Assembly (NCBI GenBank): GCA_020444275.1
Contig: JAHLLG010000003.1
Span: forward strand, 62,001-126,000
Direction of reading: 5' to 3'
DNA: 64,000 bases
Source of the DNA: Bacteroidota bacterium
GTDB taxonomy: Bacteria > Bacteroidota > Bacteroidia > Bacteroidales > UBA12077
The translations under genes were made by a program, and so were the position numbers. Positions 5,422-26,443 of this stretch are shown one piece after another. Each line of letters begins with the position of its first letter. Within the stretch, counting starts at the first letter, position 1. Below the pieces are notes generated by a model. The model worked only from the letters and a program-made list of their open reading frames with translations. It was not told the DNA's origin and did not search any database.

Positions 5422-6978
5422 TTAAAAGGCGAATTTAATACCTTGAGCCAATGGTAATTCTTTACCATAGTTTATGGTGTTCGTCTGACGTCTCATGTAT
5501 GCTTTCCACGAGTCGGAGCCCGATTCACGTCCGCCACCGGTATCTTTTTCGCCACCAAATGCGCCTCCAATTTCTGCACCTGATGTTCCGCTATTTACAT
5601 TGGCAATACCACAATCAGACCCAACTTCACTTAAGAATTGCTCGCTTTCTCGCATATTTAATGTAAACAATGCTGATGATAATCCTTGCGGAACTCCATT
5701 GTTAAGTTCAATTGCTTCATCAAATGTTTTGTATTTAATAAGATAAACTATCGGAGCAAAAGTTTCTTCTTGCACAATATGATAATGATTTTGAGCTTCA
5801 GCAATAGCAGGTACTACATAATTACCAGTCTTATACTTATCTTTTTCCAAGCCATATCCTCCGAACAAGATCTTACCACCTTCTTTTTGCACTTCTTCGA
5901 CTGCATGGGTAAATGCATATACCGAGTGTTTGTCAATAAGTGGCCCAACAAGGGTGTGAGAATCCAATGGATTTCCAATTTTACAAACAATTTGCTTATA
6001 TGCATTTACCAATCTTTCCTTTACTTCATCGTAAACTTTCTCATGTACAATAACTCGTCGAGTTGATGTACAACGTTGTCCCGCTGTTCCAACGGCTCCA
6101 AAAACAATCGACGGAATAGCCATATCTAAATCTGCAGAATCAGATACTATTACTGCGTTGTTTCCTCCCAATTCCAGGATTGTCTTACCCAATCGAGCAC
6201 CTACAATTTGTCCTACGCGTTTACCAACTGCTGTCGATCCGGTAACGGAGAATAGTGGAATTCGTTTATCTTCCAAGAAATTGTCACCCAGTACCGACGA
6301 TTTAGCAATAACTAAATTGAATACACCTTCAGGCACATCATTATCTTTCAGTACTTTTTGTATAATGTTCATGGTAGCAATGGCAGAAAGTGGAGTTTTA
6401 GAGCTGGGTTTCCAGATAACAACATCGCCGGCTATAGCTGCAAGCATGGTGTTCCATGCCCAAACTGCTACAGGGAAATTAAATGATGTAATTAAACCAA
6501 CAATTCCTACCGGATGATATTGATCATACATTCTATGGTCTCTGCGTTCCGAATGCATAGTAAAACCATTCAATAAACGCGATTGTCCAACAGCAAAATC
6601 GCATATATCAATCATTTCCTGAACTTCGCCTAATCCTTCCTGGTATATTTTACCCATTTCAAGAGTAACCAGTTTACCAAGATCTTCTTTGGCATCACGC
6701 AGTGCAAGTCCCATCTGACGAACTATTTCGCCTCTTTTTGGAGCAGGAATTTCTCTCCAAACCTTAAAAGCTTTCTGAGCTTTCGTAACAACTGCTTCGT
6801 AATCTTCAATGGTTGCATTTTGTACTTTAGCAATCTCTTTTCCGTCAATAGGCGATTCAGATGACGTGATTGCACCGTTTACATCGAACCAGTCTGTTCC
6901 GGTTGTAACACCCGGATTAACATCTTTTATTCCTAGTCTTTCTAATAATTCTTGAATATTAAATTCTGTTGTAGTCAT
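5422..6978 (-). CDS. amaB: ALDH7-type aldehyde dehydrogenase (alpha-aminoadipic semialdehyde / piperideine-6-carboxylate dehydrogenase)
   Basis: A 518-residue NAD(P)-dependent aldehyde dehydrogenase. The catalytic base lies in 'LELGGNNAV', the nucleophile Cys in 'AGQRCTSTRR', and the cofactor-loop motif is 'FSVTGSTAVGKRVG'. The C-terminal 'GGEKDTGGGRESGSD' and 'MRRQTNTINYG' are diagnostic for the antiquitin/ALDH7 branch, which oxidises 2-aminoadipate 6-semialdehyde in lysine/pipecolate catabolism. It lies 109 bp downstream of the P5C dehydrogenase gene on the same strand. The palindromic repeats at 6999-7075 separate the two, but co-transcription is likely. Exact substrate is by family analogy. 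Confidence 0.9.
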   Translation of the reverse strand: MTTTEFNIQELLERLGIKDVNPGVTTGTDWFDVNGAITSSESPIDGKEIAKVQNATIEDYEAVVTKAQKAFKVWREIPAPKRGEIVRQMGLALRDAKEDLGKLVTLEMGKIYQEGLGEVQEMIDICDFAVGQSRLLNGFTMHSERRDHRMYDQYHPVGIVGLITSFNFPVAVWAWNTMLAAIAGDVVIWKPSSKTPLSAIATMNIIQKVLKDNDVPEGVFNLVIAKSSVLGDNFLEDKRIPLFSVTGSTAVGKRVGQIVGARLGKTILELGGNNAVIVSDSADLDMAIPSIVFGAVGTAGQRCTSTRRVIVHEKVYDEVKERLVNAYKQIVCKIGNPLDSHTLVGPLIDKHSVYAFTHAVEEVQKEGGKILFGGYGLEKDKYKTGNYVVPAIAEAQNHYHIVQEETFAPIVYLIKYKTFDEAIELNNGVPQGLSSALFTLNMRESEQFLSEVGSDCGIANVNSGTSGAEIGGAFGGEKDTGGGRESGSDSWKAYMRRQTNTINYGKELPLAQGIKFAF

Positions 6979-7087: not shown

Positions 7088-8716
7088 TTAATCTTCCATA
7101 AATGGATACTTGTAACTTGTTGGCGGAACAAAGCACTCTTTTATTGTTCGTGGTGTAACCCAACGCAGAAGATTAAGTCTTGATCCTGCCTTATCGTTAG
7201 TTCCCGAACCACGTGAACCACCAAATGGTTGCTGATTAACAACTGCTCCTGTTGGTTTATCATTAATATAGAAATTACCTGCTGCATGCTCCAGCTTTTT
7301 CATCGCATATTCGATAACATATCGATCTTTTGAAAATATTGATCCGGTTAATCCATAAATAGATGTATGGTCAACAAGTTCAACGGTTTCTTTCCATTTC
7401 TTATGATCATAAACATAAATGGTTAGTATCGGACCAAACAATTCTTCTTCCATAGTAACATAGTGTGGATCCTTGGTAAGAATAATAGTTGGTTCAATAA
7501 AATAACCTTTCGATTTATCATAATTTCCACCCTGAATGATTTCTACCTCTTTATCTTCTTTAGCTCTATCGATAAATCCTGCTAACTTATCGAATGAAGC
7601 TTCATCAATCACTGCATTAAGAAAGTTTGAAAAATCTTCTACCGGACCCATTTTCATGGTTTCCATGTCGCATTTAATTTCGCATAATACTTCATCCCAT
7701 TTATTATCCGGTATATATGCTCTTGAAACAGCCGAGCATTTTTGCCCCTGATATTCGAATGCGCCGCGTGTAAGCGCAGTAGCAACCTGAGTTGGGTTAG
7801 CTGATTCGTGCATGAGCACAAAGTTTTTGCCTCCGGTTTCACCTACAATTCTTGGGTAGGTTTTATAGTTCGCAATGTTATTACCAATCTCTTTCCAGAT
7901 ATTTTGGAATACAGCAGTTGAGCCGGTAAAGTGTATACCTGCAAAATCAGGATGCGAGAAAATTACTTTTCCGGCAACGGGTCCCGAAACATAAACCAGG
8001 TTAATTACTCCATCGGGTAATCCTGCTTCCATAAAGATTTCCATGATAATTCTTGCAGCATAAATTTGTGTGTTGGAAGGTTTCCAAACAACCGTATTTC
8101 CCATCATGGCAGGTGCTGAAGGTAAATTACCTGCAATAGCTGTAAAATTGAAAGGTGTAAGTGCAAATACAAATCCTTCCAAAGCACGTTGCTCAATTCT
8201 GTTCCAACGTAATTCATCAGAATCAGGCTGTTCATTATATATCTCAGTCATATATTGAACATTGAAGCGCAGAAAATCAGATAGTTCACAAGCCGAATCA
8301 ATCTCTGCCTGGTGCACCGATTTAGATTGGCCTAACATAGTAGCAGCATTAATTCTTGCTCGATATGGGCCGGATATCATTCCGGCAGCTTTTAAAAAGA
8401 TTGATGCTCGTTGCTTCCACGACATGGCTGCCCACTTTTTGCGTGCTTTTAATGCAGCATCAATGGCATCTTTTACATGCGTTTCATCTCCACGGTGATA
8501 ATGACCTAATACATGCTGATGATCATGTGGCGGATTCAATTCTTTTTTATTATCCGTTCGAACTTCTTTTCCATCAATAATCATTGGTACATCTACAACG
8601 TTCGATCTGCACCATTCAATTGCCTTAACCAGTTTTTCTCTCTCCGGCGATCCCTTTTTGTATGTTAATACCGGCTCGTTTTTAGCCGGGGGAGCAAAAT
8701 ATAAACTCTTTTGCAT
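7088..8716 (-). CDS. pruA: L-glutamate gamma-semialdehyde (1-pyrroline-5-carboxylate) dehydrogenase
   Basis: A 542-residue stand-alone P5C dehydrogenase, the length usual for the eukaryote/Bacteroidota form not fused to proline dehydrogenase. The catalytic base is in 'VGETGGKNFV', the nucleophile Cys in 'EYQGQKCSAVSRAYIP', and the cofactor contacts in 'IHFTGSTAVF'. It oxidises glutamate-5-semialdehyde to glutamate, the second step of proline catabolism. No proline dehydrogenase is in the window. It heads a minus-strand pair with the ALDH7 gene. An inverted repeat overlaps its probable promoter at 8763-8786, which suggests repressor control. Confidence 0.94.
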   Translation of the reverse strand: MQKSLYFAPPAKNEPVLTYKKGSPEREKLVKAIEWCRSNVVDVPMIIDGKEVRTDNKKELNPPHDHQHVLGHYHRGDETHVKDAIDAALKARKKWAAMSWKQRASIFLKAAGMISGPYRARINAATMLGQSKSVHQAEIDSACELSDFLRFNVQYMTEIYNEQPDSDELRWNRIEQRALEGFVFALTPFNFTAIAGNLPSAPAMMGNTVVWKPSNTQIYAARIIMEIFMEAGLPDGVINLVYVSGPVAGKVIFSHPDFAGIHFTGSTAVFQNIWKEIGNNIANYKTYPRIVGETGGKNFVLMHESANPTQVATALTRGAFEYQGQKCSAVSRAYIPDNKWDEVLCEIKCDMETMKMGPVEDFSNFLNAVIDEASFDKLAGFIDRAKEDKEVEIIQGGNYDKSKGYFIEPTIILTKDPHYVTMEEELFGPILTIYVYDHKKWKETVELVDHTSIYGLTGSIFSKDRYVIEYAMKKLEHAAGNFYINDKPTGAVVNQQPFGGSRGSGTNDKAGSRLNLLRWVTPRTIKECFVPPTSYKYPFMED

Positions 8717-8762: not shown

Positions 8763-8786
8763 CGATATGCAAATATATACATATCG
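8763..8786 (-). promoter_or_regulatory. promoter and overlapping inverted repeat of the pruA transcript
   Basis: A perfect 7-bp inverted repeat CGATATG (8763-8769) / CATATCG (8780-8786) with a 10-nt spacer. The spacer contains the minus-strand -7 element TATATTTG (8770-8777). A TTG about 22 nt upstream could be the -33. The layout is that of an operator over a promoter. Confidence 0.5.
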
Positions 8787-9153: not shown

Positions 9154-9185
9154 AAAAAATCTAAATTGCCTAAATTGCTTAAAAT

Positions 9186-9220
9186 AATTACAACGAAGTT
9201 TTTAAAGCTTCGTTGTAATT
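9186..9220 (+). terminator. stem-loop after ppnP
   Basis: A 13-bp perfect stem, AATTACAACGAAG (9186-9198) / CTTCGTTGTAATT (9208-9220), with a 9-nt loop. The following T tract is interrupted (TGTTAATTTG), so it is either a weak intrinsic terminator or an mRNA-stabilising end. Confidence 0.7.
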
Positions 9221-9232
9221 TGTTAATTTGCA

Positions 9233-9256
9233 ATCGTTATGTAGATATTTACATAT
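9233..9256 (+). promoter_or_regulatory. candidate ModE-type operator upstream of the ModE-like gene
   Basis: The left half ATCGTTATGTA (9233-9243) is mirrored by TACATA (9250-9255) across a 6-nt spacer. The half-site differs at two positions from the E. coli ModE half-site as I recall it (ATCGCTATATA), and a 6-nt spacer fits that operator. It ends 16 nt before the ATG of the gene for a ModE DNA-binding domain (9272), suggesting autoregulation. Confidence 0.55.
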
Positions 9257-9271
9257 AGAAAAATAACAGGT

Positions 9272-9649
9272 ATGGCTGGTCCCAAAGGTTCTAAATATTA
9301 CGATGTTTTTCTGAAGTTTAAGGTTTGGCTTGAGAATACCGAAGGAGAAAGTATCTTAGGAAATGGCAAATTTGAATTGATTGATTATATCGATCAGTTA
9401 GGATCGCTTAAAGCTGCTGCCGATAAGCTGGGAATTAGTTACAGAAAAGCCTGGGGTATGCTTAAGGATGCAGAAGAGAAACTAGGATTCTGCCTTACTG
9501 AAAAACACAGAGGTGGGCAACATGGAGGAAACTCGGTGTTAACAACCGAAGGCAAAGAGTTAATAGAGGCTTATAAAGAATTACTGGTTGAATTCGACGA
9601 AGCCATTTATCAAATAACAAAGAAGTTCTTTAATAAAGTGAATAAATAG
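9272..9649 (+). CDS. ModE-like winged-helix regulator lacking a molybdate-binding domain
   Basis: 125 residues matching only the N-terminal DNA-binding domain of ModE. The helix-turn-helix is 'GSLKAAADKLGISYRKAWGM' (about 50-70), and the diagnostic wing 'GGQHGGNSVLTTEG' follows. The C-terminal Mop/TOBE domains that bind molybdate in E. coli ModE are absent, so metal sensing would need a partner or another mechanism. The next gene starts directly after its stop codon (TAG-ATG), which suggests translational coupling. A ModE-box-like palindrome precedes it. It is the first gene of the molybdenum locus. Confidence 0.88.
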   Translation: MAGPKGSKYYDVFLKFKVWLENTEGESILGNGKFELIDYIDQLGSLKAAADKLGISYRKAWGMLKDAEEKLGFCLTEKHRGGQHGGNSVLTTEGKELIEAYKELLVEFDEAIYQITKKFFNKVNK

Positions 9650-10390
9650 ATGATCTATTTTATTGGGTTAGACGATACAGATAATAAGAATTCGAGGGGT
9701 ACGGGTTATAAATCCAGACAACTAGGTAAACTGATCGAGGAGAAAAAACTGGGTGAGGTGCAATCCATTTCACGACATCAGTTGTTTGTGCACGATAAAA
9801 TAGCATATACATCGCAAAATAGTTCGGCTTGCTTAATTGTTGAATCAGATCAGGAAGAACAGTTAAAAAACCTTTGCGAGCAGTATCTGATCGATGTTGC
9901 CGAAGAAGGGTCTGATGCCGGATTGTGTTTTGCACAGGACAACCAGATCGATGATTCGGTTTTGAGCTGGGGGAAAAGAGCTAAGAAAGAGGTTCTTTTA
10001 AAGGAGGATGCCTATAAAGCAGCTGAGCATGCAGGGATCTTTCTTAAAGGTTATACCGGAGAAAAGATTGGGGTTATTGGTTCATTAGCTGCGGTGGGAT
10101 TGAGAAAAGGTGGAAATGATGGCCGAAATATTTGGCTAAAAGGAGTTGAGCTTCGCGAGTTAAAAGGAGCATATGTAATTGGAAAGTTAAAAGAAATAAT
10201 TAATATTCAGTCGGTTGTAACGAAAGAGGGAGCTGATGTAAACGATTCGGATAGAATCGAAGTTGGCGAATGGTTGCGACCACCAATAAAGAATAATAAG
10301 AATACTGTAATTGTTGAACAAAGTAAATCGAATGAAGACTATGAATGGAAATGTGTCTCAAAAGAATATATCAAAAGTATTTCAGACTAA
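9650..10390 (+). CDS. TiaS-like DDTD-motif protein (function unknown in bacteria)
   Basis: A 246-residue protein starting 'MIYFIGLDDTDNKNSRGTG'. D8, D9 and D11 form the DDTD motif of the kinase-like domain of archaeal TiaS, the tRNA(Ile2) agmatidine synthetase. A second matching block, 'GVIGSLAAVGL', lies near residue 145. The OB-fold and zinc-ribbon domains that TiaS uses to hold tRNA are missing, and bacteria normally modify tRNA(Ile2) with TilS, so a tRNA role is doubtful. It is coupled to the ModE-like gene and overlaps the next membrane-protein gene. A small-molecule ATP-dependent reaction linked to molybdenum is an inference. Confidence 0.7.
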   Translation: MIYFIGLDDTDNKNSRGTGYKSRQLGKLIEEKKLGEVQSISRHQLFVHDKIAYTSQNSSACLIVESDQEEQLKNLCEQYLIDVAEEGSDAGLCFAQDNQIDDSVLSWGKRAKKEVLLKEDAYKAAEHAGIFLKGYTGEKIGVIGSLAAVGLRKGGNDGRNIWLKGVELRELKGAYVIGKLKEIINIQSVVTKEGADVNDSDRIEVGEWLRPPIKNNKNTVIVEQSKSNEDYEWKCVSKEYIKSISD

Positions 10391-10910
10391 CACCCTGTCG
10401 TTAGTATTAGAAATTTTATTTCTGTTTGTTTTAGGAATTAGCGCTATAGTATTGCGATCATACTTAAGAATTCCGTTAGGTATTCCGGGACGTCACGGAC
10501 TGGAGTTTATGGCGTTAATTATGATTGGCCGCCGTATATCTAAAATACCTTTTGCATCGGTTATTGCTATGCTGGGTGCTACCACATTTATGTTCGTTCC
10601 ATTCATTGGAATTAAAGATCCATTTTTACCGGTAATCTACATGATTATGGCTATGGTATTGGATCTGCTGTACTTTGCATTTAGAAATCCTGCAAACCGA
10701 TTGGCAATCCTTACATTAATCGGAGGATTAACATATATGGTTATTCCGTTAAGCAGAATCTTGTTGTTCTTCTCTGCAGGTATAGTTGAAAGGTCATTTC
10801 TTAAACATGGATTTGTAATTCCTGTGGCTTCGCATTTTGCATTTGGAGCAGCAGGCGCTTTATTAGGAGCAGGACTAATCTATTCCATTAAACGTATCAA
10901 GAATAAATAA
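10341..10910 (+). CDS. small polytopic membrane protein, possibly ECF-type S component
   Basis: About 190 residues with five to six hydrophobic helices. The start is uncertain: ATG at 10332 or 10341, or GTG at 10353, all inside the 3' end of the preceding gene in another frame; overlap is ~40-60 bp. The stretch 'LRIPLGIPGRHGLEFMALI' and the small size recall substrate-binding S components of energy-coupling-factor transporters, but no A or T components are in the window, so this is tentative. A 45-bp gap leads to a lipoprotein gene on the same strand. Context suggests transport of something connected with molybdenum. Confidence 0.6.
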   Translation: MNGNVSQKNISKVFQTNTLSLVLEILFLFVLGISAIVLRSYLRIPLGIPGRHGLEFMALIMIGRRISKIPFASVIAMLGATTFMFVPFIGIKDPFLPVIYMIMAMVLDLLYFAFRNPANRLAILTLIGGLTYMVIPLSRILLFFSAGIVERSFLKHGFVIPVASHFAFGAAGALLGAGLIYSIKRIKNK

Positions 10911-10955
10911 AACTTTAATGTAAATTTTTAACCCTAAATTATAATACCATACGAT

Positions 10956-11873
10956 ATGAAAAATAGAGCATATCGAATACGAAAAATAGCAATAGCGATG
11001 ATCATCTGCGCATTGCTAATTAGTTTCTTTTCAGCCTGTGAAGAGAGTGAAACGGTTAATCATACCGATCCAACAATCAACGTAGTTCAAGGTATTAATT
11101 ATATTTCTACAGAGACAACGCTGTCAGTTGGAGAGCAATATACCGTTGCTATTCATGCCGAATATAATGGCGATAATATGTTAACCAATTTTATAGCCAA
11201 GTTGAATGGAGAGCGTTATATCGATATTGGGATGTATAAAGAGGTTTACGAAGATGAAATACAACTTTCCAAAGGACTGGAAGATACCGATGAGTGGGAA
11301 TTCATTATTCGTGATATGGCAGGAAACAGTGCGAGTGCATTTTTAACTATTCATAAAGATCAGAATATTGAGTATGGTGAAATAGAGGAGTTCTTGAATG
11401 TTAAATTAGGAGCTCAAGATAACACTGAGTTTGGAAGTTTCTTCTCATTTACAGATGGGAACGATTATAATCTGGAGAGTGCATATAATAATCAGGATAT
11501 CATAGATCTGGTATATTACTACGATAACTTTGATAAGCTGGAAGAAAATATCATATCATCTCCCGGAGGTAACATCGATGATGCATTTACTGGTACATAT
11601 GGAATGTCTAACTGGTCAACTCGAAATACAATCCGGTTCAGCCGAGAGAAAATTGATATGACTACCGAAACGTTTGATGCTGCAGCTAACGATAGCATTC
11701 TTATTGCCAATACCTTTGATTATGGAAGTGGAGGACGAAAAACTAAATACCTCGAACCAGGAGATATCTATTCGTTTGTTACTTCGGATAATGTAACAGG
11801 AATGTTTAAGGTAGTTAGCACTTCAGGAACCGATAACGGATTTATCCTATTTGATATTAAAATGCAAAAATAG
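10956..11873 (+). CDS. lipoprotein of unknown function
   Basis: 305 residues. A type II signal peptide is visible: basic N-terminus, hydrophobic core 'IAMIICALLISFFS' and lipobox Cys in 'FFSAC' near residue 28. The mature part starts with an Ig-like stretch ('LSVGEQYTVAIHAEYNGD' to 'RDMAGNSASAFLTI'), followed by a domain rich in Asp, Tyr and Gly. I do not recognise the family. It ends 8 bp before the TonB receptor gene, so it is probably its surface or periplasmic partner, as in many Bacteroidota uptake systems. Confidence 0.75.
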   Translation: MKNRAYRIRKIAIAMIICALLISFFSACEESETVNHTDPTINVVQGINYISTETTLSVGEQYTVAIHAEYNGDNMLTNFIAKLNGERYIDIGMYKEVYEDEIQLSKGLEDTDEWEFIIRDMAGNSASAFLTIHKDQNIEYGEIEEFLNVKLGAQDNTEFGSFFSFTDGNDYNLESAYNNQDIIDLVYYYDNFDKLEENIISSPGGNIDDAFTGTYGMSNWSTRNTIRFSREKIDMTTETFDAAANDSILIANTFDYGSGGRKTKYLEPGDIYSFVTSDNVTGMFKVVSTSGTDNGFILFDIKMQK

Positions 11874-11881
11874 ATTTTGTT

Positions 11882-14164
11882 ATGATCAGCAAAAAAATCA
11901 TATATACAATTTTATTCATTAGTTTTTCGATCACAGCAGTTGCACAGGGAAAGTTGCAAGGTAAAGTCTACGATGCTGAAACAAACGAGAAATTGGACGG
12001 AGCCAATGTGGTGATTATGGAACTGCAGCGAGGTATTTCAACGAATAACCAGGGAGAATTCTTGTTTGAAAACATTAAGAGTGGGGAGTACACTTTACAT
12101 GCGTCGTTTGTTGGGTATCACGATAAAAAGATCAAGGTGACAGTTCGGGAAGGACTGAATACCATTGAAATTCCAATGGCTCCTTCATCGGTAGAAATGG
12201 AGAAGGTAATTATAACGGCGACTTTAACCGAACGAAAAATTGAGGATCTGCCCGGACAGAACGAGGTAATTGAAAAGGAAGAGGTAGAGGAGTATCCTTC
12301 ATCCAATACAGATAATATATTACAGTCGATAGCCAATGTTAATGTGAACCGTAGCTGGGGAATTTTTTCCAAAAATGCTTCAGTAACCATGCGTGGTTTG
12401 GATGCGGCGCAAGGTGTATTAATTCTATATAATGGTGTTCCACTGAACAAAACTGCCGGAGGTTCAATAAACTGGCATATGATCTCGCCCGATAGAATTG
12501 AGCGTATTGAGGTTATCAAAGGTCCAAGTTCGGCTCTTTATGGTAACAATGCCATGGGAGGTGTTATCAACATTATCACTAAAAAGACACATAAAAAAAT
12601 ATCTGGTGATGTGAGAGCTTTTGGTGGTAGTTACTCCACTCTTGGAGGTAAATTTGATCTGGAAGGAAACCAGGAAATCAATGGAAAGAATTTATATTGG
12701 GCAGTAAATGGGTTTTATCGTCAGGGCGATGGATATATTATTGAACCGAAAGATTCAAGAGATTCAACCGATACCGAAGTTTATTTAAATGAATACAGAA
12801 TTGGAGCTACTGTTGGTTATGAGTTTAACGATAAAAATAAAATAGAAATAGAGTACAGTTACTATAATGATAAACGGGGCGATGGTCGACAGGTGTATTT
12901 TGACGATGGAGGTTATGTAAAGTATAATACACAATTTGTCCGCGCTAAGTATAATGGTGAGTTAGGTGAATTTAAAATAGAAGCTGATGCCTATTTGCAA
13001 AATGAGGATTTTTATCAGTTCAGTGAAAATATTAATAGTGACGGCAACTATAAAATGTCGAAAAAGAACCAAATTTCAAGGGATTACGGATTGTGGATGA
13101 ACGCAACACGTAATTTTAACGATAAAAACTGGTTAACATTTGGTATCGATATCAAACAGGGATTTATGGATGCTTCCGATATCTATTTAACATCAACTGA
13201 TACATTAATGCGTGATGGTCGTGTTCAATCTTACGCTGCATTTTTACAAGATGAGCATCGTTTATTTAACGATAAGTTAAAAATTATTGCCGGCTTACGA
13301 TTCGATTATGCAAGATTTTATGATGGTTCAATTCATGTAGGTGAACCAACAGCAAATACAGGATTTGAAGAGTCGTACGACGAAACTTACGGAAGTTCAG
13401 ATTGGATTTCATTAAGTCCTAAGTTAGCTGTGCAGTATGAGATTTCTCCAGCTATTAAATCCTATGCTTCGGCATCTTCAGGATTTATGCCTCCAAAGTT
13501 AGACGATATGATCTCATCGCGTAAAATTAGCAAAGGATTTAAGCAAGCTAATCCTGAATTGCAACCGCAAACTCTTTATAATTATGAGGTGGGATTTAAC
13601 ACAAAACCATTTAAAAAGGCACAAGCTAAAGCAGCAGCATATTATTCTGTAGGTAAAGATTTTCAATACTTTGTAGCAACTGGTGATATTGTTGATGGTA
13701 AAACTGAATTAATGCGCGAGAATATTGCCGAAATTGAAATTATGGGGGCTGAATTCTTTTTCCAGTATAACTTTACAAGGGATTTAACATTTAAAGCCAA
13801 CTATGCATACAATACATCAACCATAAAAAAGTTTGATGTTGAGGATTATACAGGCGATGATATTACAGGTAAACAGTTGGTTGAGATTCCATGGCATCAG
13901 GCCTTTGCCGGGTTGTTCTGGAAAAATAAGATTGTCAATGCAACGTTGGTTGCGAATTATATTGGTGAGGAATATGCCGACGATCAGAATATCCTGATTA
14001 TTGATGATTATCTAACTGTAGACGTACGCTTATCGAGAATGATCAATAAGAATTTGTTTTTTGCACTCGATATCCAAAATATCTTTGATAAAGTATATAT
14101 TGATAAAAAACAGCGACTTTCACCCGGTAGATTTATATTGGTTGAATTAGCATATCAGTTTTAG
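11882..14164 (+). CDS. TonB-dependent outer-membrane receptor
   Basis: 760 residues. A signal peptide (residues 1-21, ending 'AVAQ') is followed by a carboxypeptidase-regulatory-like domain (about 23-110), then the plug ('VRGL'-type 'MRGLDAAQGVLILYNGVPL' and 'IERIEVIKGPSSALYGNNA'). A 22-strand-type barrel ends in 'RFILVELAYQF' with terminal Phe. TonB receptors import scarce ligands such as siderophores, cobalamin or metals. It is smaller than SusC types and has no SusD partner. Its position between a ModE-led gene set and Moco genes makes a molybdenum- or tungsten-related ligand plausible, not proven. Confidence 0.92.
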   Translation: MISKKIIYTILFISFSITAVAQGKLQGKVYDAETNEKLDGANVVIMELQRGISTNNQGEFLFENIKSGEYTLHASFVGYHDKKIKVTVREGLNTIEIPMAPSSVEMEKVIITATLTERKIEDLPGQNEVIEKEEVEEYPSSNTDNILQSIANVNVNRSWGIFSKNASVTMRGLDAAQGVLILYNGVPLNKTAGGSINWHMISPDRIERIEVIKGPSSALYGNNAMGGVINIITKKTHKKISGDVRAFGGSYSTLGGKFDLEGNQEINGKNLYWAVNGFYRQGDGYIIEPKDSRDSTDTEVYLNEYRIGATVGYEFNDKNKIEIEYSYYNDKRGDGRQVYFDDGGYVKYNTQFVRAKYNGELGEFKIEADAYLQNEDFYQFSENINSDGNYKMSKKNQISRDYGLWMNATRNFNDKNWLTFGIDIKQGFMDASDIYLTSTDTLMRDGRVQSYAAFLQDEHRLFNDKLKIIAGLRFDYARFYDGSIHVGEPTANTGFEESYDETYGSSDWISLSPKLAVQYEISPAIKSYASASSGFMPPKLDDMISSRKISKGFKQANPELQPQTLYNYEVGFNTKPFKKAQAKAAAYYSVGKDFQYFVATGDIVDGKTELMRENIAEIEIMGAEFFFQYNFTRDLTFKANYAYNTSTIKKFDVEDYTGDDITGKQLVEIPWHQAFAGLFWKNKIVNATLVANYIGEEYADDQNILIIDDYLTVDVRLSRMINKNLFFALDIQNIFDKVYIDKKQRLSPGRFILVELAYQF

Positions 14165-14279: not shown

Positions 14280-15077
14280 ATGGTTACAAACGATTTAGTT
14301 GAAAAATATAAAAACTGGTTTACTCATTATACACAAAAGATAATTGATAAGTATCCCGATTTGTCAGAAAACATAGAGATTAAAGTTGATCACTGCTGGA
14401 AAGTAAGTGCAGAAATTGTTGGACTGGCTCGCAACTTAAGGTTGCCTGAAAGCGATGTTTTATTAGCTGAAATTATTGGTTTATTCCACGATGTTGGTCG
14501 ATTCAGACAATATGTGAGATATCAGACTTTTTCTGATTCAAAATCGCAGAATCATGCCGAACTTGCACTGGATGTACTACAAGAGTATGAAGTATTGAAT
14601 GATCTTTCTGACGAAGAACAAGAAATAATTCAGAAGGCAATATTGAATCATAGCCGGGCAGAAATCATACCCGATGAAAATGAAAAGGTTAATTTCTGTT
14701 CCAAGTTAATACGCGATGCAGATAAACTGGATATCTGGCGATTAATTACAGAGTATTATATGGTGAAAGAACAGAAAGAAAATATGACTTTACAGCTTGA
14801 ATTGCCAGATGAGGATGAAGTCACCGATGAGGTTCTGGAAGCCATATTAAATAAACAAGTGGTACTTAAAGAATCGATGAAAACATTAAATGATTTTAAG
14901 TTACTGCAGATAGCCTGGTTATTTGATTTGAACTTTTCTTACTCTATTCAGCGTGTTTATAAGAAAAGGTATTTGAACAAAATATTTGATTCATTGCCAC
15001 ACAATGATAAAATCAAACAGGTTCAGGAAATTGTGAAATCTTATTTTAAAGAACATATTGAAACATTTATATATTGA
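14280..15077 (+). CDS. HD-domain hydrolase family protein
   Basis: 265 residues with an HD-type metal-dependent phosphohydrolase core. The first His is in 'KVDHCWKVSAEI', the HD pair in 'GLFHDVGRFRQ', further His in 'SQNHAELALDVL' and 'LNHSRAEI', and the distant Asp in 'RDADKLDIW'. The C-terminal ~100 residues are helical and unrecognised. It probably hydrolyses a phosphorylated nucleotide or small molecule; the substrate is unknown. It lies between the TonB receptor and moeA on the same strand. A second, smaller HD protein (21435-21989) sits at the other end of the molybdenum genes. Confidence 0.82.
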   Translation: MVTNDLVEKYKNWFTHYTQKIIDKYPDLSENIEIKVDHCWKVSAEIVGLARNLRLPESDVLLAEIIGLFHDVGRFRQYVRYQTFSDSKSQNHAELALDVLQEYEVLNDLSDEEQEIIQKAILNHSRAEIIPDENEKVNFCSKLIRDADKLDIWRLITEYYMVKEQKENMTLQLELPDEDEVTDEVLEAILNKQVVLKESMKTLNDFKLLQIAWLFDLNFSYSIQRVYKKRYLNKIFDSLPHNDKIKQVQEIVKSYFKEHIETFIY

Positions 15078-15102
15078 TATCTGTTTTTCGAAACAGAAGT
15101 GT

Positions 15103-15110
15103 TATTTTTG
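15103..15110 (+). promoter_or_regulatory. -7 promoter element of moeA
   Basis: TATTTTTG fits TAnnTTTG, 15 nt before the moeA ATG. Upstream, CTGTTT-TTCG-AAACAG (15081-15096) is a small UUCG-loop hairpin that could end the HD-gene transcript. Confidence 0.5.
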
Positions 15111-15125
15111 CTCAAAATTGGAATT

Positions 15126-16295
15126 ATGATTACGATAGAACAAGCATATAAAATTGTTTTACAAGATGTTAAATCATTAGAAACAGAGAAAGTTTCATTT
15201 ACCGACTCATTAGGGCGTATTTTAGCTGAAGATGTAAAATCGGATATAGAAATGCCTCCATTCGATAAATCTGCAATGGACGGTTATGCTTGCCGTAAGG
15301 AAGATCTGGGGAATCCATTGGAGATTATAGAAGTTATTCCTGCAGGAAAAACTCCTGAAAAAATAATAGGGAAAAATCAGTGTGCAAACATTATGACCGG
15401 AGCACCAATCCCCGAGGGAGCTGATACAGTTGTACAAGTTGAACTTACCGAGGTGGCTGGAAATTCTGTTAAAGTTTTGGAGGCGCCTAAAAAATCGAAT
15501 ATAAGTTACCGGGCAGAAGATGTTGAGGTTGGCACAAAAGTTCTAAGCAAAGGAATAAAAATTGAAGCCCAGCATATTGCAGTATTTGCAGCGGTAGGAT
15601 ATACCGATGTTTTGGTTTATCGAAAACCTAAAATAGGTATTATTTCTACGGGAGATGAATTAGTTGAGCCGCAAAACAAACCTGCACTTTCACAAATCAG
15701 AAATAGTAATGGTTATCAGCTTATAGCACAGGTTAAGGCTTGTGGTGCTATTGCAAATTATATTGGAATTGCAGACGACACTCCGGAAGATACTTTTGAT
15801 AAAGTAAGTAAAGCATTAAATGAAAATGATATTGTTCTGCTAACCGGAGGGGTTTCTATGGGATCTTTTGATTTCGTTCCACAAGTTTTGGAGCAAGCTG
15901 GTGTAAAAATTGAATTTGATGCGATAGCGGTAAAACCGGGTAAACCTACAACCTTCGGAAAAGCAGATGATAAATATTGTTTTGGTCTGCCAGGAAATCC
16001 GGTATCATCATTTATGCAGTTCGATCTATTGGTTAAGCCACTTATTTATCATTTAATGGGGCAGGAGTATGAACCACTGGATATTAGAATGCCAATGGGC
16101 GTTGAATATAAGAGAAGAAATGCCGATCGAAGAGCTTACTTTCCAGTGATTATTCGGGATGGGGAAATTTTTCCTGTCGATTATCATGGTTCAGCTCATA
16201 TACATGCATTATCTTCGGCGCATGGAATTGCTTCCATAGAGATTGGAAAAGGAGAGATTAAGAAAGGAGAAATGATTCATGTTCGACAGATTTAA
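15126..16295 (+). CDS. moeA: molybdopterin molybdotransferase
   Basis: 389 residues from ATG 15126. An earlier TTG frame start at 15099 would add nine residues and lies over the -7 element, so it is not used. Family motifs are 'PPFDKSAMDGYACR', 'GIISTGDELVEP', 'LLTGGVSMGSFD' and 'GLPGNPVSSFMQF'. MoeA inserts molybdenum into adenylylated molybdopterin, giving Moco in the cytoplasm. The stop overlaps the moaA start by 17 bp, so the two are translationally coupled. Confidence 0.96.
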   Translation: MITIEQAYKIVLQDVKSLETEKVSFTDSLGRILAEDVKSDIEMPPFDKSAMDGYACRKEDLGNPLEIIEVIPAGKTPEKIIGKNQCANIMTGAPIPEGADTVVQVELTEVAGNSVKVLEAPKKSNISYRAEDVEVGTKVLSKGIKIEAQHIAVFAAVGYTDVLVYRKPKIGIISTGDELVEPQNKPALSQIRNSNGYQLIAQVKACGAIANYIGIADDTPEDTFDKVSKALNENDIVLLTGGVSMGSFDFVPQVLEQAGVKIEFDAIAVKPGKPTTFGKADDKYCFGLPGNPVSSFMQFDLLVKPLIYHLMGQEYEPLDIRMPMGVEYKRRNADRRAYFPVIIRDGEIFPVDYHGSAHIHALSSAHGIASIEIGKGEIKKGEMIHVRQI

Positions 16296-17079
16296 TCGTA
16301 AAATAAATTATCTGCGAATTTCGGTTACCGACCGATGTAATTTGCGTTGTGTATATTGTATGCCTGAGGAAGGAGTTCAATTACTTTCGCACCAGGATAT
16401 CTTAACCTTTGATGAGATTGTAGAAGTTGCAAAAGCAGCAGTTCGCAAAGGTGTTGATAAAATCAGAATTACAGGAGGTGAGCCACTGGTTCGCAAAGGA
16501 ATTGTGGATTTAGTGGAAATGATTGGTAAAATTGATGGAATAAAGGACTATTCCATGACAACCAATGCCATTTTGCTGGATAAATATGCTGAGGATTTGG
16601 CTAAAGCCGGATTACAACGAGTAAATATTAGCCTGGATACTTTAGATCCGGATGCTTTCAGAAAAATTACCAGAGGTGGTGACATACAAAAGGTTTTTGA
16701 TGGTATTGAAGCAGCTAAAAAGGCCGGCTTAGGTCCGATTAAAATAAACTGTGTGATAAAAGAAACTAATCAGGAGCCAAATGCTGTTGAGGTAGCAAAG
16801 TACTGTGAAGAAAACAATTTGGAAGTGCGCTTTATTAAAGAGATGGATTTGGAAACCGGTAGTTTTTCAATTGTTCAGGGAGGTTCAGGAGGGAACTGTG
16901 CTAAATGTAACAGAATTCGTTTAACAGCAAATGGAAATATCAAGCCATGTTTGTTTAGCGATATTTCTTATAATGTTCGTGAACTAGGATACGAGAGAGC
17001 AATAGATTTGGCTATAGGAAACAAACCGCAATCAGGACACACAAATATTACAGGAAAGTTTTACAATATCGGAGGGTAG
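16279..17079 (+). CDS. moaA: GTP 3',8-cyclase, short form
   Basis: 266 residues. This is a radical-SAM enzyme making 3',8-cyclo-H2GTP, the first Moco step. The N-terminal cluster motif is C20-x3-C24-x2-C27. The second cluster is C207-x2-C210-x13-C224 with 'CNRIRLT'. The C-terminal Gly-Gly ('YNIGG') is kept. It is about 60 residues shorter than the usual ~325-330. The missing part falls between 'EVRFIKEMD' and the second cluster, where ordinary MoaA carries ~50 more residues. The frame is intact, so this looks like an inherited compact form rather than a broken gene. Confidence 0.9.
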   Translation: MFDRFNRKINYLRISVTDRCNLRCVYCMPEEGVQLLSHQDILTFDEIVEVAKAAVRKGVDKIRITGGEPLVRKGIVDLVEMIGKIDGIKDYSMTTNAILLDKYAEDLAKAGLQRVNISLDTLDPDAFRKITRGGDIQKVFDGIEAAKKAGLGPIKINCVIKETNQEPNAVEVAKYCEENNLEVRFIKEMDLETGSFSIVQGGSGGNCAKCNRIRLTANGNIKPCLFSDISYNVRELGYERAIDLAIGNKPQSGHTNITGKFYNIGG

Positions 17080-17144
17080 AATTTCAAATACCAGATTTCA
17101 CATTCCAGATTGTATAACATTTTTTGCAATTTGAATATATTAAC

Positions 17145-17196
17145 CTGAAATTTGAAATATTAAATCTGAAATTATTTGTAATTTGTAATCTGAAAT
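17145..17196. repeat. degenerate CTGAAAT repeats between moaA and moaC
   Basis: CTGAAAT occurs at 17145, 17166 and 17190 (21 and 24 nt apart) inside an AT-rich tract made of AATTTG/AAATCTG words. It forms the 125-nt gap before the moaC ATG. Confidence 0.45.
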
Positions 17197-17204
17197 CTGT
17201 AATT

Positions 17205-17657
17205 ATGAATAAACTTAGTCATGTAGACGAAAAAGGAAAGGCCAACATGGTTGATGTTGGAGCCAAAGATGATCAAAAGCGTATTGCTAAAGCTACTGGT
17301 CATATTACCTTAAAACCTGAAACCATTCAGTTGATTCAAGAGAACGCAATGAAAAAGGGAGACGTTCTTACCATTTCAGAAGTTGCAGGAATTCAGGGAG
17401 GAAAGAAAACAAGTGATTTAATTCCTTTATGTCATCCGCTTCAAATCACTAAGCTTGATGTTAAAGCCACAATCGATAAAACCGGAGTCAGAGTAAACTC
17501 GGAAGCGCGTTGTGTTGGAAAAACGGGAATTGAAATGGAAGCTTTAACAGCTGTATCTGTGGCGCTTCTTACAGTTTACGATATGTGCAAAGCTGTTGAT
17601 AAAGAGATGAATATCGACGAGGTGAGGTTGGTTGAAAAAACTAAAACAGATTTGTAA
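17205..17657 (+). CDS. moaC: cyclic pyranopterin monophosphate synthase
   Basis: 150 residues from ATG 17205. The frame opens further upstream but that part is encoded by the low-complexity repeat and unlike the family. Motifs: 'LSHVDEKGKANMVDVGAK', 'SDLIPLCHPLQIT' and 'TGIEMEALTAVSVALLT', with the catalytic Lys and Asp region 'TVYDMCKAVDK'. It converts cyclo-H2GTP to cyclic pyranopterin phosphate after MoaA. MoaD and MoaE, needed for the next step, are not in this window. A terminator follows at 17700. Confidence 0.96.
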   Translation: MNKLSHVDEKGKANMVDVGAKDDQKRIAKATGHITLKPETIQLIQENAMKKGDVLTISEVAGIQGGKKTSDLIPLCHPLQITKLDVKATIDKTGVRVNSEARCVGKTGIEMEALTAVSVALLTVYDMCKAVDKEMNIDEVRLVEKTKTDL

Positions 17658-17750: not shown

Positions 17751-18095
17751 GTGAATGTGAGAAAGTTTGAAATAGTAATTCTTGAAACAGTAAGACAGTT
17801 TTTGAAAAAGCTTGATAAGAAGGCAAGCAAGAAGATAGTTTTCAACATGAAAAAGGTTCAGGTAACTGTTGACCCTGAATTATTCAAGAAATTGACGGAT
17901 GAAATCTGGGAATTTAGAACAAAGTATAACAAGAATTACTATAGACTCTTAGCTTTTTGGGATAAGACAGACAATAAAGAAACTTTAGTTGTTTGCGCTC
18001 ATGGATTCATTAAGAAAACCAAGAAAATTCCCAAATCGGATTTTGAAAAAGCTAAATTGATAATGAAAAAGTACTTTGAAAATGGGAAAAAATAA
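17751..18095 (+). CDS. RelE/HigB-superfamily toxin (Gp49-like)
   Basis: 114 residues, very rich in Lys, with a GTG start (17751, or the in-frame GTG at 17757). The C-terminal half has the PF05973 pattern 'IWEFRTKYNKNYYRLLAFW' and 'VVCAHGFIKKTKKIPKSD', as in HigB-type mRNA interferases. These cleave mRNA at the ribosome. It overlaps the antitoxin gene by 14 bp, and toxin-first order is typical of HigBA. It interrupts the molybdenum locus. Confidence 0.85.
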   Translation: MNVRKFEIVILETVRQFLKKLDKKASKKIVFNMKKVQVTVDPELFKKLTDEIWEFRTKYNKNYYRLLAFWDKTDNKETLVVCAHGFIKKTKKIPKSDFEKAKLIMKKYFENGKK

Positions 18096-18426
18096 AGAAA
18101 TTAGAAAAGAAGATTTAAAGCAATATTCATTAGACCAAATCACTGATGAAATTGTTGGAAAAGAAGGAACAGAAGAACGAGAGCAGTTTGAATTCGAATT
18201 GCAAATTGACTTGCTTGGAGATATTGTTAAGCAAACAAGAAAGGAAAGGCATTTGACACAGGCTCAATTAGGAGAATTGATTGGTGTTAAAAAAGCTCAA
18301 ATTTCAAAAATTGAGAATAACATAAAAGATGTTAGGTTCTCAACCATTATGAAAGTTTTTAAAGCACTGAAAGCAAAAATTAAGTTGTCAGTTCAATTAG
18401 ACAACTCTGATTTTAATATTGCTTAA
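18082..18426 (+). CDS. HigA/XRE-family antitoxin
   Basis: 114 residues from ATG 18082 (a TTG two codons earlier is possible). An N-terminal acidic ~45-residue arm is followed by a helix-turn-helix of the XRE type: 'LTQAQLGELIGVKKAQISKI' and 'NIKDVRFSTIMKVFKAL'. It should bind and neutralise the upstream toxin and repress the operon, probably at the palindrome 17700-17721. The overlapping start keeps antitoxin translation coupled to that of the toxin. Confidence 0.87.
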   Translation: MGKNKEIRKEDLKQYSLDQITDEIVGKEGTEEREQFEFELQIDLLGDIVKQTRKERHLTQAQLGELIGVKKAQISKIENNIKDVRFSTIMKVFKALKAKIKLSVQLDNSDFNIA

Positions 18427-20020: not shown

Positions 20021-20467
20021 ATGAGTGAGATAAAGGTTGTATCAGTAAATATTTCGGAAGAAAAAGGTGTTATAAAAAAGCCTGTTGAGAAAATTATTTT
20101 AAACGAAAAAGGTGTTGTGAACGATGCGCATGCAGGCGATTGGCACAGACAAGTAAGTTTGTTGGCAAAAGAAAGTATTAAAAAGTTTGAGGAAGTATTG
20201 GGTAGAGAACTTGAATATGGTGAGTTTGCTGAAAATATTACGACCGAAGGTATTACACTTTATGAGATGAAACCGGGTGATAAGATTTATATAGGAGAAA
20301 CTGAGTTGGAGGTTACTCAGATTGGTAAAAAATGTCATGGTGATGGTTGTGCTATTTTTAGTCAGGTTGGGAAATGTGTAATGCCTAAAGAAGGTATTTT
20401 TGCTAAGGTTTTAAGAACAGGTGAAGTTAAACCAGGCGATTCAATTAAGTATAAACCTCAAGAATAA
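20021..20467 (+). CDS. MOSC-domain protein with conserved cysteines
   Basis: 148 residues forming one MOSC domain: 'KGVVNDAHAGDWHRQVSLL', 'GEFAENITTEG' and the Cys-bearing 'GKKCHGDGCAIFSQVGKCVM'. MOSC domains bind Moco or related sulfur carriers and occur in Moco sulfurases and in YiiM-type proteins. The three cysteines around residues 107-126 make sulfur or metal transfer plausible. A paralogous MOSC domain fused to MogA starts 6 bp downstream and lacks these cysteines. Confidence 0.9.
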   Translation: MSEIKVVSVNISEEKGVIKKPVEKIILNEKGVVNDAHAGDWHRQVSLLAKESIKKFEEVLGRELEYGEFAENITTEGITLYEMKPGDKIYIGETELEVTQIGKKCHGDGCAIFSQVGKCVMPKEGIFAKVLRTGEVKPGDSIKYKPQE

Positions 20468-20473
20468 ATTGTT

Positions 20474-21391
20474 ATGATTACAGGAAAAGTTCTATCCGTA
20501 TCGTTATCTGCAGAACGGGGTCCAAAGAAACCCGTTGCAGAGATTAAGCTGGATCAAAAAGGTGTAATGGGCGATGTACATGCAGGTACCCAAAGACCTG
20601 TAAGTATAATAGATAGCTCACATATTACACGTTTTAAGAACATAACAGAAGCGCGTGACACTCGATTTGGCGAGTTTGCTGAAAATATCACAACAGAAGG
20701 TTTACAGGATATAGAATTCAAAATATTTGATCTAATAAAAATTGGAGAAGTTTTATTGGAAGTAACACAAGTTGGGAAACCTTTTCATGATCAGTTTCGT
20801 GAATTGGGCAATTATGTGATGCCAAGAGTCGGTATCTTTTGCAGAGTAAAACAAGGGGGTACAATAAAAGCTGAGGATAATATTGAAGTTATTCAAAAGG
20901 AGTATAAATCGATTGTTATTACACTAAGCGACAGGGCAAGCAGAGGAGAATATGAAGATAAGAGCGGACCTAGGATTATTGAGTTGTTAGAATCATACCT
21001 CAAAAAAATAAAAGTAAGATATAGCATCGACCATAAAATTATCCCGGACGATAAAACTGAACTTAAGAAGCTACTGGAAATATCTAAAAAGGATCAGTAT
21101 GATATTGTAATTACCACCGGTGGAACTGGCATTGGACCAAGAGATATTACTGTGGAAACTGTTCAGCAAATGCTCGATAAAGAGATCCCGGGCATCATGG
21201 AAATGATTCGCTTAAAATACGGACAGGAAAAACCTAACGCCTTATTGAGTAGGGGAGTTGCCGGAGTAATGCAAAATAGTTTAGTGTATACGTTACCAGG
21301 CAGCGTAAAGGCAGTTCAGGAATATATGGCAGAAATTGTAAAAACATTACAACATTTAATCTATATGTTGCACGGAATTGATATACATTAA
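20474..21391 (+). CDS. MOSC-MogA/MoaB fusion protein (molybdopterin adenylyltransferase)
   Basis: 305 residues in two domains. Residues 1-~140 are a MOSC domain, similar to the preceding gene ('GEFAENITTEG', 'VTQVGK') but with 'PFHDQFRELGNYVMPRVG' where that one has its cysteines. Residues ~145-305 are a MogA/MoaB domain with 'ITLSDRASRGEYEDKSGP', 'VITTGGTGIGPRDIT' and 'YTLPGSVKAVQEYM'. MogA adenylylates molybdopterin for MoeA. The fusion suggests physical hand-over between a Moco-binding domain and the adenylyltransferase. Whether the Cys-less MOSC is only a binding domain is inference. Confidence 0.9.
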   Translation: MITGKVLSVSLSAERGPKKPVAEIKLDQKGVMGDVHAGTQRPVSIIDSSHITRFKNITEARDTRFGEFAENITTEGLQDIEFKIFDLIKIGEVLLEVTQVGKPFHDQFRELGNYVMPRVGIFCRVKQGGTIKAEDNIEVIQKEYKSIVITLSDRASRGEYEDKSGPRIIELLESYLKKIKVRYSIDHKIIPDDKTELKKLLEISKKDQYDIVITTGGTGIGPRDITVETVQQMLDKEIPGIMEMIRLKYGQEKPNALLSRGVAGVMQNSLVYTLPGSVKAVQEYMAEIVKTLQHLIYMLHGIDIH

Positions 21392-24921: not shown

Positions 24922-26424
24922 TTATAAGTTTTTTGTTTTATATGTTTTTTCTCTCTCAGCGGCCTTTGTATCCCATTCAGGTACAACTTCTTCCATAAAT
25001 TTTTCTTTTTCGGAATTGAGTTTTTCTACATCTAATCCAATAAATTCTTGTGCTTTTTCTTTGGTTACTATATTGGGATAAGGAACCTCTTCATTAAATC
25101 CAAGTGATGCCAGTACTCTGGCAAGTTTTATTCTTGCATCGTGGGCCGCATCCAGCCCGGTTGATAATACACGAGCAGATTCTATTGGACTGTGGAAGGA
25201 AGCACCGTGACTGGCTGCTATATAATCCCAACGCCACTGGGCGTGTCTTATGTCCATTAAAATATCTTCCATTTGATTTTCTGTGGCACCCAGTTCCCAA
25301 GCTTTTCCTGCTTCGACATGAGCTCTTACAATTTCTTTTTCAAGCTCATCTCTCGTTTCTTTGATTTTATCTTGTCGCTCATATACGTTTGCTAATAATT
25401 CAGAAGTCTCTTCACGATGACAAACCTGACAGGTATTAGCGATATTATTTAAAGGACTCTGGATTTTGTGATCAGTAAATTTTTGTCCGCCTTCATTAAT
25501 GTATGGCATGTGACAATCAGCACAGGCTAATCCTCGTTGTGCATGTATCCCGGTTTGGAAAATCTCAAAATCGGGATGTTGTGCTTTTAACATAGGAGCT
25601 TTACTAATCGAATGTGTCCAGTCTTTAAAATCATACGAATCATAATATGCTTCCATCTCCTCAACTGAAGTGCCCTCTTCCCAGGGGAACGTAAGATAAT
25701 TACCTTCTCCTTTAAAGTAGTATTCTACATGACACTGTGCACAAACCAGTTTGCGCATATCCTGATGACTCACCGTATTAATATCCATATTCATGCTTTG
25801 GTAACCTTCAACAAGTGCTGGGCGAGAAATACGTAGGTTCATATTTTGTGCATCATGGCAGTCGGCACAACCAATATTATTAACAATTTGGTGTCCCTCT
25901 TCTTCCCATGAACCTTTATAAAATTCGGCTACTCCGACTTCTTGCATTCTTCTTGGAACATCGGGGCTCTTGCAGGTCCAGCAGGTGTTTGGCATTGGAC
26001 TTGTTTTTCCATCAACAGGGGCACCTGTTCTGAGAATTTTTCTTATATCATCGATAGCATGTTCATGCCCTTTACCTTGATTATACTCTTTAGAAAAACC
26101 ATATCCGGCCCATAAAACAACTAAACGAGGATCCTCTTCAAGCATATCACGGGGGGCACTTCCATTGTATTTGCTTTTAAACGATGTGTCTTTTGTTTGC
26201 AAAAACCTGTTGTACTGTCGTGGAAAATTTTCACCCCACACTTCGTTGCGAGGTTCCCACTGCGAATGTTCAACTGTTGGTGTATAAGCAAATACAGCTT
26301 CAGCTCTTCGTTCTATAATTGAAGACGCTAATAAACCTAAAAAGAAAACAATAATTATCGTTGCTATAAATAATACCCATCCTTTCCAGGGTTTTTCTTT
26401 AATTTGATCGGTTATTGGTTTCAT
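24922..26424 (-). CDS. nrfA: ammonia-forming cytochrome c nitrite reductase, catalytic subunit
   Basis: 500 residues. An N-terminal signal-anchor helix (about 16-34) is followed by a pentaheme domain. The active-site heme motif is CWTCK (148-152), with lysine as ligand. The other hemes are CADCH (186-190), CAQCH (228-232), CADCH (301-305) and CQVCH (332-336). It reduces nitrite to ammonium with six electrons on the periplasmic side. The order nrfH-nrfA with a 19-bp gap matches the NrfHA type, in which NrfH feeds electrons from menaquinol. Confidence 0.97.
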
Positions 26425-26443
26425 AAGTTATTTTGTTATTGTT

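Follow-up and report, generated by a model that had tools for sequence, protein, structure and literature searches.

A 2018 survey counted ModABC, WtpABC and TupABC as the only prokaryotic importers of molybdenum (Mo) and tungsten (W), while allowing that further systems may exist (PMC6147048). We analyzed a stretch of 64,000 nucleotides ("the window") from the 4.22 Mb genome, in 10 contigs, of a member of the Bacteroidota, class Bacteroidia (GCA_020444275.1); five of its genes, at positions 9272-14164, probably constitute a system for the acquisition and handling of tungsten and/or molybdenum under a single-domain ModE-type regulator. This island would be like the three described importers in its job and in its control by Mo/W regulators, whereas it contains neither an oxyanion-binding protein of their type nor an ABC permease and ATPase, and instead encodes an S component of the energy-coupling factor (ECF) type and a TonB-dependent outer-membrane receptor. 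Our literature search found no TonB- or ECF-linked W/Mo system, which is not proof of absence.

The initial annotation of the window had proposed Mo/W-linked uptake across both membranes by five co-directional genes with tight junctions, led by a ModE domain and preceded by a ModE-box-like palindrome. Inspection of the open reading frames confirmed the arrangement, with all five genes intact and on the plus strand: a ModE-type helix-turn-helix (HTH) regulator of 125 aa (9272-9649), a "DDTD protein" of 246 aa (9650-10390), the S component of 189 aa (10341-10910), a secreted lipoprotein (10956-11873) and the TonB-dependent receptor (11882-14164). The ATG of the DDTD gene directly abuts the stop codon of the regulator gene, and the best start of the membrane protein, an ATG at 10341 giving a conserved MNG start, leaves a 50-nt overlap with the end of the DDTD gene. 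The expected molybdenum cofactor (Moco) genes were found downstream on the same strand, namely moeA, moaA and moaC (15099-17657; same order in loci L007, L015, L019, L022 and L023) and, by family models, two MOSC proteins (20021-21391), mog proving to be a domain fused to the second of these; mobA also follows. Gene content, conservation, co-occurrence and box positions give the Mo/W link good support and extend it, while the import itself stays a prediction.

The DDTD protein was found in two of the 197 genomes of a class-wide draw (the window's own and G163), and a wider scan, covering some 85,000 species genomes, returned 26 DDTD loci, 22 in Bacteroidota (one labelled Chlorobiota) and four in Chloroflexota; in the Chloroflexota class of genome G220, 15 of 199 genomes hold the protein. 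The order DDTD protein, membrane protein, lipoprotein, TonB receptor recurs, and the unit formed by the first three is found again in most Bacteroidota loci; 14 loci include the ModE gene, many have moeA/moaA/moaC, and six have an aldehyde:ferredoxin oxidoreductase (AOR) gene. The five families named in the initial annotation do co-occur with Moco genes in other genomes. In 26 of 39 loci, some of which end early at contig ends, a Mo/W gene is no more than 10 kb away from the DDTD gene. In G163 the DDTD, S-component, lipoprotein and TonB receptor genes are followed by WtpABC and mobB, and in Chloroflexota the neighbors of the DDTD gene include molybdenum-storage-beta homologs (E 1e-79, seven loci), moa/moe genes, WtpABC and genes whose sequences read as those of TaoR-like regulators. 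Of the 24 DDTD-bearing Bacteroidota genomes, 22 encode proteins of the AFOR family (PF02730), compared with 2 of the 195 class relatives lacking DDTD (Fisher p 8e-26; 3e-4 within the unbiased class sample; neither value is corrected for kinship). A single AOR subfamily, with proteins about 720-760 aa long, is represented in nearly all of these genomes, often beside a ThiF-like gene, as has been described for other tungsten oxidoreductases (PMC13328260). These partner enzymes indicate tungsten at least as strongly as molybdenum. Four metagenome-assembled genomes with AOR and island (G205, G210, G212, G214) have no binding protein of the ModA/WtpA class (PF13531) or the TupA/PstS class (PF12849), an absence that in such assemblies is suggestive only. 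Divergent from the AOR of our own genome, and adjoining a ThiF-like gene, is a DUF364/DUF4213 "heavy-metal chelation" protein (L043:7172-7873).

The TonB receptor has the plug (PF07715) and barrel (PF00593) of a general TonB-dependent transporter, together with PF13715. Nothing places it clearly among siderophore or cobalamin receptors: every siderophore, haem and B12 model scored under its cut-off (best TIGR01785, 194.7 versus 316.85; B12, 130 versus 600), and these identities were rejected. In a whole-genome search its sole close paralog (41% identity, E 3e-171; next 1e-26) is a receptor in a wtp operon, and this location of the closest paralog is the best single reason for a W/Mo role of the window receptor. 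The statement in the initial annotation that no modABC is visible thus holds for the window and fails for the genome, since contig C7 carries a separate wtpABC in the order WtpA (336 bits, cut-off 243), two lipoproteins of the window lipoprotein family, TonB receptor, a 357-aa lipoprotein, WtpB and WtpC; the lipoprotein/TonB pair is therefore shared between this operon and the island, and WtpABC itself adjoins the island in G163 and L015. A TonB receptor beside the genome's own AOR (L043:11044) is of a different subfamily and was rejected as a relative.

An AlphaFold2 (AF2) model of the lipoprotein (pLDDT 90.5) has two domains, and together with fold searches it points to an Ig/PKD-like N-domain and an overall likeness to DUF4466 proteins. 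The closest match was to 4ei0, a DUF4466 protein (Foldseek E 1e-9), where a Z of 15.3 comes with an rmsd of 14.8, so the predicted agreement is one of domain order rather than a rigid fit and indicates no function. Two small secreted proteins, L029:12843-13337 beside ECF genes and L042:1216-2286 in a wtp operon, have a faint likeness to SUOX molybdopterin-binding proteins; PF00174 gives E 0.12 for L042:1216-2286 only, and this match is the sole support for suspecting such binding in the 165-aa (see below) and 357-aa proteins.

The membrane protein, which the initial annotation described as polytopic, is by its gene neighbors in Chloroflexota and its modeled fold an ECF-type S component. Its AF2 model (pLDDT 86) has the six helices of the S-component fold and best matches the YkoE-like S component 5edl (Z 13.8 over 165 residues), with other S components at Z 10-11; as subunit B of pMMO reaches 11.5, the fold match is insufficient by itself. 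In the Chloroflexota loci L029, L030, L031, L065 and L067, however, the DDTD gene is followed by a double EcfA ATPase, EcfT (PF02361 E 5.8e-20 in L029), a 165-aa anchored protein and then a relative of the S component, so that the ATPase and EcfT adjoin it as they do in ECF systems such as CbiMNQO, NikMNQO and the vitamin transporters, with which the fold is also shared. Known ECF substrates are vitamins and Ni/Co, whereas the context of the island is W/Mo. Unlike ECF transporters, the Bacteroidota islands have a solitary S component beside a TonB receptor and no EcfA/EcfT next to it; EcfT exceeds its cut-off in one of the 24 DDTD-bearing Bacteroidota genomes and is not found in our own. In L015 WtpABC directly follows the DDTD gene with, by coordinates, a short S-component fragment between the two, an arrangement in which one importer would have been replaced by the other. 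Searches with sequence profiles brought up no solved structure related to the S component, the lipoprotein or the 165-aa protein of Chloroflexota.

The DDTD protein shares its N-terminal DDTD/TCKD domain with TiaS and methanogenesis marker protein 11 (TIGR03280 E 2.4e-11; TiaS E 1.1e-8), and the family profile matches the solved TiaS with E 1e-12 over residues 1-150. Against the full TiaS model it scores 34 bits (cut-off 600), with the match ending at about residue 151: the kinase domain is present and the rest of the 420-aa TiaS, including the C-terminal tRNA-Ile2 modification domains, is missing. As the genomic context is W/Mo and not tRNA, TiaS-type tRNA modification was rejected. Our literature search turned up no publication that names methanogenesis marker protein 11. 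MolABC (HI1470-1472) is a molybdate/tungstate importer of the BtuCDF type, and although it has no counterpart in the window, a BtuF-type binding protein accompanies DDTD genes elsewhere. On a Natribaculum haloarchaeal plasmid (L092:5768-7711) a binding protein for metal complexes, of the BtuF type, is encoded divergently to the DDTD gene; its match to the HI1472 structure is weak (E 7e-9) and other BtuF-type structures match better. A ferrisiderophore/BtuF-type binding protein also adjoins the DDTD gene in L070.

The regulator has an HTH domain that resembles that of Escherichia coli ModE: it matches TIGR00637 with E 8.5e-20, but at 70.7 bits remains under the cut-off of 98.5. It consists of the HTH only, with no TOBE/Mop molybdate-binding domain, and is therefore named here a ModE-type single-domain regulator and not a full ModE. 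A single-domain ModE without a molybdate-binding domain, whose mode of sensing is unknown, was reported in Desulfovibrio (PMC545781); the DDTD protein, encoded next to the regulator, is a candidate sensing partner. From the sequences upstream of the ModE genes of relatives we derived the box consensus CGATATG-N10-CATATCG, which has the same CGnTAT..-N6-..ATAnCG layout as the E. coli consensus ATCGNTATATA-N6-TATATANCGAT (PMC545781).

A pattern search of the whole genome with this box, counting mismatches, returned five sites with at most one mismatch. Only two are perfect, both in the window: one between the divergent genes for L-glutamate gamma-semialdehyde dehydrogenase (P5CDH) and Ppnp (8763-8786), the other overlapping the start of the lipoprotein gene (10952-10975). 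The three single-mismatch sites lie in the wtp operon ahead of a lipoprotein gene, ahead of an AOR gene on C7 and ahead of an AOR operon on C9. Nine sites have two mismatches, including those of wtpA and the ModE gene, whereas the reversed pattern, used as a control, returned five sites with two mismatches or fewer; one of the nine, C7:326072, lies within a coding gene (gpsA by reading) and was rejected as chance. The palindrome reported in front of the island is real, having the ModE layout (9235-9258, CGTTATG-N10-CATATAG, two mismatches) just past the promoter of the ModE gene, and its position and N10 spacing are preserved in eight further loci; the two perfect boxes had been missed. The box at 8763-8786 is kept in L006, L007, L008, L009 and L025, and that at 10952-10975 is found at the same position or about 30 bp upstream in the ten loci checked. 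Boxes at target genes are thus a property shared with ModE, and the predicted regulon reaches beyond the five genes first described, to two aldehyde dehydrogenases and to the AOR and wtp operons on other contigs.

The -7 element of Bacteroidota promoters is TAnnTTTG. It lies inside the box at the P5CDH, wtpA and C9 AOR promoters, and begins 12 bp ahead of the box at several ModE genes and at the wtp lipoprotein gene; that of the window's own ModE gene is imperfect. A box on or just after the -7 element is in a position for repression. For the AOR of about 720 aa, eight of nine promoters have the start of the box 64-66 bp upstream of the -7 element, and the ninth has it at 54 bp, one helical turn closer, a position for activation; a chance estimate for this spacing, 3e-20, ignores shared ancestry, although most of the upstream regions are only 42-61% identical (at most 73%). 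Box position thus suggests repression of the uptake genes and of two NAD-type aldehyde dehydrogenases by the regulator, and activation of AOR. Repressor and activator roles are likewise combined in E. coli ModE, from which the regulator here differs in the lack of a molybdate-binding domain and, in its proposed regulon, in the inclusion of AOR and NAD-type aldehyde dehydrogenases. No -7 element is visible at the box overlapping the lipoprotein start, which may act as a roadblock.

The perfect box at 8763-8786 contains the -7 element of the P5CDH gene (7088-8716, minus strand; TIGR01236 781.8 bits, cut-off 613.6) and stands 47 bp ahead of its ATG. Downstream of this gene, and possibly co-transcribed with it, is a gene for L-piperidine-6-carboxylate dehydrogenase, also NAD-type (5422-6978, minus strand; NF050084 791.9 bits, cut-off 730). 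We propose that P5CDH is a metal-free aldehyde dehydrogenase under repression by the regulator. With a box ahead of NAD-type aldehyde dehydrogenases of proline and lysine breakdown, the arrangement suggests a choice of aldehyde-oxidizing enzyme that depends on W/Mo.

Between the TonB receptor and moeA is a gene for an HD-domain protein (14280-15077, plus strand; PF01966), a possible member of the operon with counterparts in L006, L007 and L009. In 12 loci the receptor is followed by a secreted protein of about 280 aa with a C-terminal sorting tail (for example, L004:14649-15479), the place of which is taken by the HD protein in the window. A strong hairpin with 17-nt arms and a 1-nt loop (9186-9220), 3' of the Ppnp gene and just ahead of the ModE promoter, is probably a terminator; folding of 9154-9290 gave a shuffle z of -3.95. 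No Rfam family, including the Moco riboswitch, reached its cut-off within the window, and a Moco or other riboswitch was dropped from consideration. By eye, we also noted from the translations a toxin-antitoxin-like pair of HigB/RelE-like and XRE-type HTH genes between moaC and the MOSC genes (17751-18426), and NrfA/NrfH-like cytochrome c nitrite reductase genes near a LysR-type regulator (24922-27025).

Other explanations of the island can be weighed against W/Mo acquisition. The receptor, lipoprotein and S component could import a pterin for salvage, whether molybdopterin, dephospho-molybdopterin or the cofactor with its metal, and the DDTD protein would rephosphorylate it. Salvage kinases accompany the S components for vitamins, S components mostly carry vitamin-like organic molecules, the DDTD domain resembles a kinase domain, a TonB receptor hints at a bulky substrate and Moco genes adjoin the island; the faintly SUOX-like secreted proteins (cluster 14 by the ECF genes and the protein in the wtp operon, the latter at an E of only 0.12) point the same way. 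We nevertheless consider salvage unlikely, given that these genomes have Moco synthesis genes beside the island, that a paralogous lipoprotein/TonB pair is found in the operon of wtpABC, an oxyanion carrier, and that DDTD occurs with WtpABC instead of the S component in L015 and L075. TonB receptors classically import metal chelates, and catechol siderophores carry Mo in Azotobacter, so that uptake of metallophore-bound W/Mo, with later steps freeing the metal, could also be envisaged; the BtuF-type proteins beside DDTD in L070 and, with the weak HI1472 match, on the haloarchaeal plasmid would fit. This is rather improbable, as the surroundings of the island showed no genes for metallophore synthesis and the receptor is above the cut-off of no siderophore model.

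The island might instead sense or allocate metal imported by wtpABC, the S-component-like protein and DDTD protein forming a membrane signaling or storage-delivery unit for the regulator. The latter lacks a metal-binding domain of its own in a genome with no free Mop/TOBE sensor, its gene abuts that of the DDTD protein, there is no ECF motor, and DDTD adjoins molybdenum-storage homologs; the S-component fold is reported in receptors too (PMC11109136). On the other side, the TonB receptor and lipoprotein are part of the same gene unit, Chloroflexota do have the ECF motor, and some AOR genomes lack binding proteins of the wtpABC type, making a role without import a poor prospect. Genes of anaerobes often cluster, and sampling heavy in metagenome-assembled genomes may bias co-occurrence, so an unrelated nutrient system might by chance or lifestyle stand beside Moco genes. 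No tool result favors this general consideration, and ModE boxes at fixed promoter positions, both inside the island and ahead of wtp and AOR genes, together with the linkage seen again in Chloroflexota with different partners, make it very improbable.

Acquisition and handling of W and/or Mo is the reading we prefer, and a number of points weigh against it. To our knowledge, S components serve vitamins and Ni/Co cations and none is known for an oxyanion; without a motor, an S component may transport poorly or not at all; and the genome's own wtpABC could suffice for uptake. The regulator has no metal-binding domain, the sole TOBE domain in the genome being that of WtpC, and the box of the C9 AOR is of the repressor type, unlike a simple switch in which metal turns AOR on. 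Several compared genomes are incomplete metagenome assemblies, which makes absences weak. We infer the transport, the species transported (oxyanion, chelate or pterin), the DDTD reaction and the direction of regulation.

The acquisition system as we picture it would work as follows. When Mo/W is scarce, the regulator would leave its boxes and the island would be expressed; at the outer membrane a W/Mo species would be captured by the TonB receptor and lipoprotein and delivered to the periplasm. Passage across the inner membrane would fall to the S component, unaided in Bacteroidota, where 23 of 24 genomes have no ECF motor, and together with EcfA/EcfT in Chloroflexota. In the cytoplasm the DDTD protein, through its TiaS-like ATP-using domain, would activate or trap the imported species ahead of MoeA and the pterin steps. 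With Mo/W in good supply, the regulator would repress the island and the two NAD-type aldehyde dehydrogenases and activate the tungsten-type AOR. Overall this would be a metal-sparing switch: with metal, AOR is on, and the NAD-type enzymes and uptake are off.

It is possible, and we suggest it tentatively, that the S-component route (solitary with TonB in Bacteroidota, paired with the ECF motor in Chloroflexota) represents a fourth class of prokaryotic W/Mo importer, joined by a new ATP-using DDTD enzyme within a ModE regulon that exchanges NAD-type aldehyde dehydrogenases for AOR according to metal supply. If true, it would be a new class beyond ModABC, WtpABC and TupABC, and would explain the metal supply of some AOR-bearing anaerobes that lack the corresponding binding proteins. 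The positions of the boxes predict a testable metal-sparing switch between aldehyde-oxidizing enzymes, and the uncharacterized DDTD family, kin of a conserved methanogen marker, is tied to W/Mo metabolism in both Bacteroidota and Chloroflexota.

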